The notes beneath the pieces were generated by a model that had not been told where the DNA came from, did not search any database, and worked only from the letters and a program-made list of their open reading frames with translations. The position numbers and the translations under genes were made by a program. A DNA stretch of 64,000 bases. Source: Haloplanus sp. CK5-1 (GTDB lineage: Archaea > Halobacteriota > Halobacteria > Halobacteriales > Haloferacaceae). The DNA lies in the NCBI RefSeq assembly GCF_037201915.1, contig NZ_CP147505.1:1054001-1118000 (forward strand), written 5' to 3'. Each line of letters starts with the position of its first letter. Positions within the stretch are counted from its first letter, which is position 1. Positions 7,225-9,319 of this stretch are shown here, piece by piece.

Positions 7225-8016
7225 ATGAACACGGGAACACGCGCGCGCCTCCGCCGCATCTCGACGGACGACCGCTACCTCATCGTCCCCATGGACCACG
7301 GCGTCACCATGGGCCCGGTGAAGGGGTTGGTCGATATCGAATCGACCATCGACGCCGTCACCGACGGCGGCGCGGACGCCGTCCTCACGCAGAAGGGAAT
7401 CGCACCCCGCGTCCACGACAACAAGAACGGCTCGGGCTTTATCGTCCACCTCAACGGCTCGACGAACATCGGCCCGGACGAGGCCGACAAGCGCGAGACC
7501 GGCAGCGTCGAGGCGGCGCTCCGGGCCGGTGCCGACGCCGTCTCCTTCCACATCAACGTCGGCTCCGAGTACGAACCGAACCAGATGACCGACCTCGCCC
7601 GCGTGACCGAGCGCGCGACGGAGTTGGGGCTGCCGACGCTGGCGATGGCGTACGCGCGGGGCCCAGATATCGCCGAGGACGACCCCGAAGCGCTCGCCCA
7701 CGCCGTCCGCCTCGCCGAGGAACTCGGTGCGGACGTGGTCAAGACGGGATACAGCGGCGACGGCGACAGTTTCGGACCCGTCTGTGCCGGCACCCGCCTG
7801 CCGGTCGTCATCGCCGGTGGCAGCCGTGGGACGGATCGCCAGACCGTCGAGATGGTCCGCGGCGCGATGGACGGTGGGGCTGCCGGCGTCTCGATGGGTC
7901 GGTCGATCTTCCAACACGACGACCCCGGTGCGATTACCCGCGCAATCGCCGCGGTCATCCACGACGACGCGGGCGTCGACGAGGCGCTCCGGCGGGGCGG
8001 CCTGCTCGAAGCGTGA
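7225..8016 (+). CDS. 2-amino-3,7-dideoxy-D-threo-hept-6-ulosonate (ADH) synthase
   Basis: Class I aldolase-like enzyme of the archaeal early shikimate route: it condenses 6-deoxy-5-ketofructose 1-phosphate with aspartate semialdehyde, replacing DAHP synthase. It has 263 residues. Visible features are the VPMDHGVTMGP strand, the Schiff-base lysine in DVVKTGYSGD, and a C-terminal phosphate-binding GGAAGVSMGRSIFQ. The next gene encodes dehydroquinate synthase II, the second enzyme of the same route, which supports this call over fructose-bisphosphate aldolase. Confidence 0.92.
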   Translation: MNTGTRARLRRISTDDRYLIVPMDHGVTMGPVKGLVDIESTIDAVTDGGADAVLTQKGIAPRVHDNKNGSGFIVHLNGSTNIGPDEADKRETGSVEAALRAGADAVSFHINVGSEYEPNQMTDLARVTERATELGLPTLAMAYARGPDIAEDDPEALAHAVRLAEELGADVVKTGYSGDGDSFGPVCAGTRLPVVIAGGSRGTDRQTVEMVRGAMDGGAAGVSMGRSIFQHDDPGAITRAIAAVIHDDAGVDEALRRGGLLEA

Positions 8017-8097
8017 TACGGATTATCGTAAGTCAGTACCGGTGAGTCGCCGGATCGCCTTGGCGGCTCACCGGTAAACAGTTACAATAATCCGTAT
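8016..8097. repeat. Large intergenic palindrome (36-bp arms, 10-bp spacer)
   Basis: The left arm is 8016-8051 and the right arm 8062-8097. Reading the right arm in reverse complement, 30 of 36 positions match, with mismatches mostly clustered in one 5-base patch. The left arm begins inside the stop codon of the ADH synthase gene. Outer arms share ATACGGATTAT and inner arms share TACCGGTGAG. The element would fold into a long hairpin in RNA, or extrude as a cruciform in DNA. It could be a terminator for the upstream gene, a regulator site or a dispersed palindromic repeat; one copy is seen in this window. Confidence 0.85.
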
Positions 8098-8143
8098 GAG
8101 TCCATCCGCCACGTTGAAGCCACGTCCCGTCGAGGTGTAGACA

Positions 8144-9319
8144 ATGACACGGAGCGTGTGGCTGAAGGCCGACGGCGACGTCGGCGACTGGGAGCGACGG
8201 AAAGAGCGCATCGTCGCCGGACTGGAGGCCGGCGTCGACTGGGTGCTCGTCGACGAGACGGACGTGGCGCGGGTGCGTGACCTCGGCGACGTGAACGTGG
8301 CGGCCTTCCGGGCCGACGCCGACCTCGTCGAGGACGCCGAACCCGAGGGGACGACGGCCGACGCGTACGTCGTCGGCAAGAACGGCGAGGGTGACGGCAC
8401 GGTCGACCTCCCGCCCGACTTCTCCGGGTCGGCCGACCTCTCGACGCTCCGCCGGGACGGCGACGCCCCGCAGGGAGCCTACGTTCGCATCTTCGACGAG
8501 GAGTACGAGGGCTTCGCCGAGGCCGCGGCCGACGAAGCCGAGTACACCATCGTCGTCGCCGAGGACTGGACGATCATCCCGCTGGAGAACCTCATCGCCC
8601 GCATCGGGTCGGAGACGGACCTGATTGCGGGTGTCACCACCGCCGAGGAGGCCCAAACTGCCTTCGAGACGCTGGAGATCGGTGCCGACGGCGTGTTGCT
8701 GGACGCCGACTCCCCCGACGAGATCCGGGCGACCTGCGAGGTTCGCGACGCCGCCGACCGCGAACACCTCGAGTTACAGTACGCCGAGGTGACCGCGGTC
8801 GAGCGCACGGGTATGGCCGATCGGGTCTGTGTCGACACCGGATCGCTGATGGAGGGCGACGAGGGGATGCTCGTCGGGTCGATGTCGCGGGGGCTCTTTT
8901 TCGTCCACGCGGAGACCGCCGAGTCGCCGTACGTCGCCTCGCGACCCTTCCGGGTGAACGCCGGCGCGGTCCACGCGTACGCTCGGTCGCCCGGCGGCGG
9001 CACGCAGTATCTCTCCGAACTCGCGAGCGGGGACGAGGTGCAGGTGGTCGATACCGACGGTGACACCCGGGAGGTCGTCGTCGGCCGGGTCAAGATCGAG
9101 AAGCGGCCGATGTTTCGGGTGCAGGCCGAAGTCGAGGCCGAGGAGGGCGTCGACCGCATCGAGACGCTCCTCCAGAACGCCGAGACGATCAAGATCCACA
9201 CCCGGGAGGGTCGGACCGCGGTCACGGATCTGGAGGCCGGCGACGAGGTACTGGTCTACTACGAGGACGTGGCCCGCCACTTCGGCGAGGCGGTCGAGGA
9301 GAGCATCATCGAGAAGTGA
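8144..9319 (+). CDS. 3-dehydroquinate synthase II
   Basis: Archaeal-type dehydroquinate synthase that oxidatively deaminates and cyclises ADH to 3-dehydroquinate with NAD+. It has 391 residues, in line with the family. Typical segments are SVWLKADG at the N-terminus, the GMADRVCVDTGSLM core and the C-terminal AGDEVLVYYEDVARHFGE. It follows the ADH synthase gene, with the palindrome between them, and its stop overlaps the next gene by 4 bases. Confidence 0.95.
   Translation: MTRSVWLKADGDVGDWERRKERIVAGLEAGVDWVLVDETDVARVRDLGDVNVAAFRADADLVEDAEPEGTTADAYVVGKNGEGDGTVDLPPDFSGSADLSTLRRDGDAPQGAYVRIFDEEYEGFAEAAADEAEYTIVVAEDWTIIPLENLIARIGSETDLIAGVTTAEEAQTAFETLEIGADGVLLDADSPDEIRATCEVRDAADREHLELQYAEVTAVERTGMADRVCVDTGSLMEGDEGMLVGSMSRGLFFVHAETAESPYVASRPFRVNAGAVHAYARSPGGGTQYLSELASGDEVQVVDTDGDTREVVVGRVKIEKRPMFRVQAEVEAEEGVDRIETLLQNAETIKIHTREGRTAVTDLEAGDEVLVYYEDVARHFGEAVEESIIEK

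Follow-up and report, generated by a model that had tools for sequence, protein, structure and literature searches.

A dispersed hairpin element of haloarchaea with a 3-bp target duplication that commonly includes a stop codon

A palindrome within a block of aromatic genes

The window, a stretch of 64,000 nucleotides from the genome of Haloplanus sp. CK5-1, contains a block of genes for TrpC, TrpB, TrpA, ADH synthase and 3-dehydroquinate synthase II, each of which scores above the cut-off of its NCBIfam model, confirming the aromatic setting proposed by an earlier, sequence-only reading of this DNA. The ADH synthase gene ends in a TGA stop codon at 8014-8016, and the last A of this codon is the first base of the palindrome, as that reading also had it. 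The two palindrome arms (8016-8051 and 8062-8097) are 36 nt each, lie 10 nt apart and match at 30 of 36 positions. This is the best score for an inverted repeat of this shape in the whole window, and 30 dinucleotide shuffles reach at most 26, so the palindrome is real. The mismatches, at arm positions 12, 17, 19, 20, 21 and 32, had been described as concentrated in one internal patch; this holds for four of the six, but the other two stand alone outside it. Positions 8016 (A) and 8097 (T) are parts of a flanking target duplication, which leaves 8017-8096 as the element proper, with termini written as TACGG/TTATTGTAA. The features of the locus are as follows.

7225-8016, + strand: ADH synthase gene (TIGR01949), ending at the element
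8014-8016, + strand: TGA, serving both as the ADH synthase stop codon and as the left copy of the 3-bp target duplication (a single TGA is present at the empty site of G010, a congener)
8017-8096, + strand: 80-bp hairpin element, terminal bases TACGG...CCGTA (covariance model match of 99.9 bits; boundaries from the G010 empty site and eight identical copies in a second congener, G008)
8017-8031, + strand: outer left arm, pairing with 8082-8096
8032-8036, + strand: conserved non-pairing patch, left side, GTCAG (alignments A2 and A3)
8037-8051, + strand: inner left arm, pairing with 8062-8076
8052-8061, + strand: loop of 10 nt
8062-8076, + strand: inner right arm
8077-8081, + strand: conserved non-pairing patch, right side, AACAG (alignments A2 and A3)
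8082-8096, + strand: outer right arm
8097-8099, + strand: TGA, right copy of the target duplication
8144-9319, + strand: 3-dehydroquinate synthase II gene, downstream of the element (pre-insertion gap of 44-45 bp)

Folded as DNA or as RNA, the hairpin is far more stable than its shuffles (z -7.2 and z -8.6, respectively). The stability of the RNA form, at -50.5 kcal/mol, favors a role of the hairpin as a conserved regulator or terminator of the aromatic operon, although a search of 7900-8250 for a stem-loop followed by a T tract, as in intrinsic terminators, found none. Searching the stretch against Rfam gave no model matching the element and a single chance match, to mir-B6, outside it (E 0.87; score 25, the cut-off being 89).

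A family present throughout the genus and widely in haloarchaea

When the 3.24-Mb genome of the window was searched with the element by BLAST, several further copies appeared beside unrelated genes. With nhmmer, six copies score at least 50, the window copy included, and one more is weak; a further diverged copy is present in L168. The family is matched in all 12 genomes of the genus, with 2 to at least 150 matches per congener when both strands of the palindrome are counted, which implies roughly 70 copies or more in some congeners. In an evenly drawn sample of the class, at least one match (E up to 0.001) was present in 108 of the 292 haloarchaeal genomes and in 37 of the 77 genera, in line with the association of similar palindromes with other haloarchaea made in the sequence-only reading; copy numbers from these scans are lower bounds, since scoring was limited to 16 candidates per genome for the class and to 150 for the genus. 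One named carrier is Natronosalvus hydrolyticus, at one locus found with a strict pattern. A copy from another genus (L156), used as query, matched 11 haloarchaeal plasmids, with carriers in Natrinema, Natronorubrum, Natrialba, Halomontanus, Halococcus and Halapricum; the window copy itself matched nothing in the plasmid and phage collections. A pattern scan of viral contigs picked out 68 stretches, and the covariance model accepted none of them; the same model did detect the copies in L055 searched alongside. Searched with the gene block, the plasmid collection returned only distant matches of trpB type.

Two identical copies about 6 kb apart in G004 (L054 and L060; contig C7 near 2252929 and 2259012) are each directly followed by a degenerate second copy of the family.

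Empty sites and target duplication

Both genes at the window locus are present without the element in all 11 congeners. In the nearest of these, G010, which is 92% identical in the downstream gene, the empty site is gapless and has a single TGA; the element is thus 8017-8096, with TGA duplicated on both sides, and the insertion probably happened in the lineage of Haloplanus sp. CK5-1 after its split from G010. The joined flanks of 15 other element loci were compared with five congeners. Eleven align through the junction without the element in at least one genome, some with indels, and at three of these 11 (G007:298050, G007:2363020 and G000:1832313) the empty site is gapless over about 60 bases on each side. 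The duplicated triplet at G000:1832313 is TAA.

Recent movement is most evident in G008, where eight copies identical over all 80 bp lie in eight unrelated places, each with its own exact TGA/TGA or TCA/TCA flank; six pairs of these copies were compared and have nothing in common beyond 3-8 flanking bases. A near-complete census of this genome, built from the arm matches listed and comprising 62 copies after 5 of 67 rows were dropped, shows an exact 3-bp duplication at 48 of the 62 copies among those matches. The duplicated triplets observed are TGA, TAA, TCA and TTA, and repeats that have decayed at stop sites commonly read TGA on the side of the gene and CGA on the other (12 of 63). In other genera, 18 of 23 sampled copies have exact repeats.

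The hairpin family is a dispersed, mobile repeat, and the MITE-like character suggested earlier is upheld by its multiple copies in its own genome and in every congener, its wide haloarchaeal spread, its target duplications and its empty sites. BLASTN of the genome and of other haloarchaea had been proposed to distinguish a repeat family from a single copy lacking conservation at orthologous loci; many copies beside unrelated genes were found, but the window locus itself is empty in every congener. That absence contradicts a regulatory cruciform conserved at this position and, together with the placement of other copies beside unrelated genes, makes a dedicated control element of the aromatic operon very improbable. 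The window copy is a passenger at the locus and not a conserved control of the aromatic genes, although a terminating or polar side effect of the element is possible.

One convergent gene pair is represented at three loci in three congeners (L023, L036 and L077): the stop of the left gene carries a copy common to G000 and G010, and G008 has a separate copy at the stop of the right gene.

Occupancy of stop codons

Target sites were characterized in 73 elements from 12 genomes, chosen by similarity to the window copy and scoring at least 50 (11 of 84 elements were dropped for scores under 50); two G004 copies in a duplicated segment are both counted here, and alignment A2 omits one of them (61 of 62 listed). 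Genes were called with a crude codon score trained on six genes of the window. By these calls, an in-frame stop codon of a coding-like frame is one copy of the duplication in 63 of the 73 elements. The stops used are 61 TGA, 2 TAA and 0 TAG, compared with 241 TGA, 85 TAA and 175 TAG for unoccupied genes in the same stretches. Elements occur in both orientations relative to the stop (40 and 23), which indicates that the triplet belongs to the target and not to the element. The target has a symmetric bias, with G at -3, C at -1, G at +1 and C at +3. With every TNA triplet taken as an equally good target in stretches that leave the next promoter intact, 17% of copies would be expected at stops, and a safe-zone model weighted by the target bias raises this share to 32%. 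Both values are well below 63 of 73, so survival or some directed step must supply the remainder.

Actively directed insertion at gene ends, mediated for instance by transcription termination, an R-loop or the mRNA 3′ end, was suspected first, in place of random insertion at TNA followed by selection. The excess over the 32% expectation favors it, as does the finding that even near-identical copies lie at stops in 6 of 12 cases. The identical copies and the census of G008 shifted our view toward survival as at least part of the cause. Among the matches listed, 49 of 62 copies in the census are at stops, and the share is lower for copies with a near twin (at most 1 difference; 6 of 12) than for the others (43 of 50, p=0.013), in a comparison for which numbers are small, the near twin is a proxy for young age only, and the cut is one of four tried, giving p values of 0.05, 0.013, 0.015 and 0.06. 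Three to four of the eight identical copies are at stops, depending on the criterion. Several young copies, as well as the copy at G007:298050, lie at TGA triplets outside stops, and the complete avoidance of TAG stops shows that sequence matters. Directed insertion appears unlikely. Since young copies are less stop-biased than older ones, survival is supported as at least part of the cause of the stop bias, on small numbers.

In samples from outside the genus, the stop test was passed by 13 of 23 copies, and in annotated plasmid regions the element overlaps an annotated stop codon in 3 of 8 cases, with no overlap in the other five. The copy near 298050 of G007 (L058) has a TATA-like box on one side and a start codon on the other, and occupies a non-stop TGA. 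The G011 copy L177 (contig C1 near 1209880) is truncated: the terminal TGA of a gene is followed by a single arm, and the remainder of the element is gone.

Constraints from neighboring genes and transcription

A leaderless archaeal core promoter is about 33 bp in size. When the following gene lies on the same strand, the pre-insertion gap is shorter than 33 bp in 0 of 27 occupied cases compared with 76 of 201 unoccupied ones (p=1e-5), which argues that insertion into tight operons is not tolerated. The A+T content 34-22 bp before gene starts is 52% at occupied sites, 47% for other genes with long gaps and 33% for genes with tight gaps. The exclusion from tight gaps would also suit the regulatory hairpin considered above; the spacing itself fits either a polar effect of a strong hairpin in the 3′ UTR, which would end or cut transcripts, or the loss of read-through.

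Convergent neighbors are over-represented at copies (38 of 65 compared with 91 of 292, p=5e-5). This enrichment favors a reading in which copies have been domesticated as portable 3′ ends, acting as bidirectional terminators or mRNA stabilizers, and persist at stops for this reason. A reporter assay in Haloferax volcanii measured 59% termination for a hairpin tested as a terminator (PMC7237163), which also speaks for such a role. The presence of copies is patchy between congeners, a pattern that speaks against domestication. Copies of the family put very stable hairpins into many 3′ UTRs, which bears on how archaeal transcript ends are understood.

Stem covariation and a conserved non-pairing patch

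Among 61 copies from the genus, changes on both sides occur in 11 of 30 pairs, and 0 of 500 shuffles reach the covariation score. In an alignment of 27 sequences, mostly from other genera, both-side changes occur in 19 of 30 pairs and 0 of 500 shuffles reach either the count or the covariation score; 93.5% of the cells are paired, and other complementary sequences have taken the place of the inner stem. Nearly all members of both alignments preserve the non-pairing patch, which reads GTCAG or GTCAT opposite AACAG or close variants. Simple arm-by-arm conversion would erase this patch, and it is probably kept by selection or by an enzyme that recognizes it. The combination of compensatory stem change with a fixed non-pairing patch suggests that a mobilizing or binding factor recognizes the strand in its folded form, whether DNA or RNA. 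Strong stem covariation is also a point for domesticated 3′ ends, but the needs of mobility or conversion between arms can produce covariation as well, and we consider domestication a minority explanation for the persistence of copies at stops. In one copy of G000 (L022, near 1579675) the inner loop is inverted and part of one arm is lost, as if the hairpin center had flipped.

Search for a mobilizing transposase

Searches with solo arms in five genomes and G008 found no autonomous relative with the ends of the element; the 15 solo-arm matches that were read are diverged or truncated copies or chance matches, and the solo arms listed for G008 served only as the source of census copies. Seven congeners have 69 DDE_Tnp_1 matches, and the 30 of these that were examined show no matching ends; the high-copy insertion sequence of the element's own genome has ends unlike those of the hairpin. 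No transposase that mobilizes the element emerged from these searches. The high-copy insertion sequence (L291-L310) has a reading frame for a 332-aa DDE transposase and 24 copies of equal score, with about 1,010 bp common to the 20 that were read.

The imperfect hairpin, the conserved non-pairing patch and the many intergenic copies recall REP palindromes moved by RAYT-like Y1 transposases, and the sequence-only reading had named REP elements as one option. REP/RAYT elements, however, are not known to duplicate their target on insertion, whereas the present family makes clean 3-bp duplications. Y1_Tnp has no match in the element's own genome, and over 292 genomes its presence is not associated with carriage (80 of 108 carriers and 121 of 184 non-carriers, p=0.15); the genome of the window copy is among 28 carriers without a match. 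This non-association and the target duplication argue against REP/RAYT, so that membership of the classical REP class is not supported and a Y1-driven origin is highly improbable. A more suitable first guess comes from the target: because IS1031-type elements prefer TNA and duplicate 3 bp, a transposase of this type (IS5 family) is a candidate mobilizer.

Discussion

The observations are best explained, and with considerable confidence, by a non-autonomous, MITE-like hairpin that enters sites resembling GNC-TNA-GNC, is silent when TNA is a TGA or TAA stop, and survives best as stop-codon copies. The 80-bp hairpin inserts into this palindromic target and duplicates the central TNA, as the empty sites and identical copies show; it would land on TGA and TCA sites in general. 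Where the TNA is a TGA or TAA stop codon, insertion recreates the stop and leaves the host protein unchanged; copies would usually survive at gene ends because insertion there copies the stop and the protein is unharmed. Same-strand copies persist only if 33 bp or more of native upstream DNA is left to the following gene. Mobilization would be in trans, with a TNA duplication such as IS1031-type (IS5 family) transposases make.

A more far-reaching version of this account holds that the mobile hairpins are specialized on stop codons across the haloarchaea and that retained copies serve as portable bidirectional 3′ ends insulating neighboring genes. In GC-rich genes the final codon and the TGA after it suit the palindromic target GNC-TNA-GNC, and the 3-bp duplication rebuilds the stop; we nevertheless regard this extension as speculative and improbable. 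If it were true, transposition would be a source of new gene ends.

A mobile element that includes the stop codon in a 3-bp duplication can colonize gene-dense parts of compact genomes with proteins left intact, and insertion at stop codons would be an elegant solution to the problem of safe sites that mobile DNA faces. That solution is testable because fresh, identical copies exist. A search of open-licence full-text literature other than preprints, in which five core sequences were among the queries, did not surface the hairpin family. The novelty lies in the family itself and in its existence at stop codons, where duplication of the target makes good the damage of insertion.

Several known systems resemble the family in part. 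The SMR-A and SMR-B elements of Haloquadratum walsbyi are, like it, haloarchaeal, about 80-110 bp long and bounded by inverted terminal repeats, with a parent transposon that is not known; PMC3119063 states that they make no target duplication and target other mobile elements, whereas the hairpin family duplicates TNA and sits at gene ends. PATEs of Haloquadratum are transposase-free haloarchaeal elements with palindromes, but the same paper describes them as kin of IS605-type elements with neither inverted terminal repeats nor duplication, and the hairpin family has both. Membership of either group was considered and is contradicted by the 3-bp duplication and, for PATEs, also by the inverted terminal repeats. 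IS1272 shares a mobility tied to inverted-repeat structures, although, according to PMC5678879, it replaces inverted-repeat targets without duplication, in contrast to the 3 bp duplicated here. Elements of the IS1031 group (IS5 family) resemble the hairpin family in their TNA targets, TGA being one example, and in their 3-bp duplication; as presented in PMC12016507, they are full insertion sequences with a transposase, and among the ends we compared no haloarchaeal member with TACGG ends was found.

The closest likeness is to MITEs. The element is 80 bp long without coding capacity, has terminal inverted repeats and a target duplication, and exists as dispersed, recently mobile copies that have multiplied in bursts. 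Prokaryotic MITEs, as characterized in the review PMC10969869, are likewise short and non-coding, with terminal inverted repeats, target duplications and many intergenic copies. A parent transposon of the hairpin was not found in the ends searched (30 of 69 DDE_Tnp_1 matches and the 24-copy insertion sequence). Compared with the elements described there, the hairpin family is distinguished by being one whole palindrome, by compensatory turnover of its inner stem and by its strong occupancy of stop codons.
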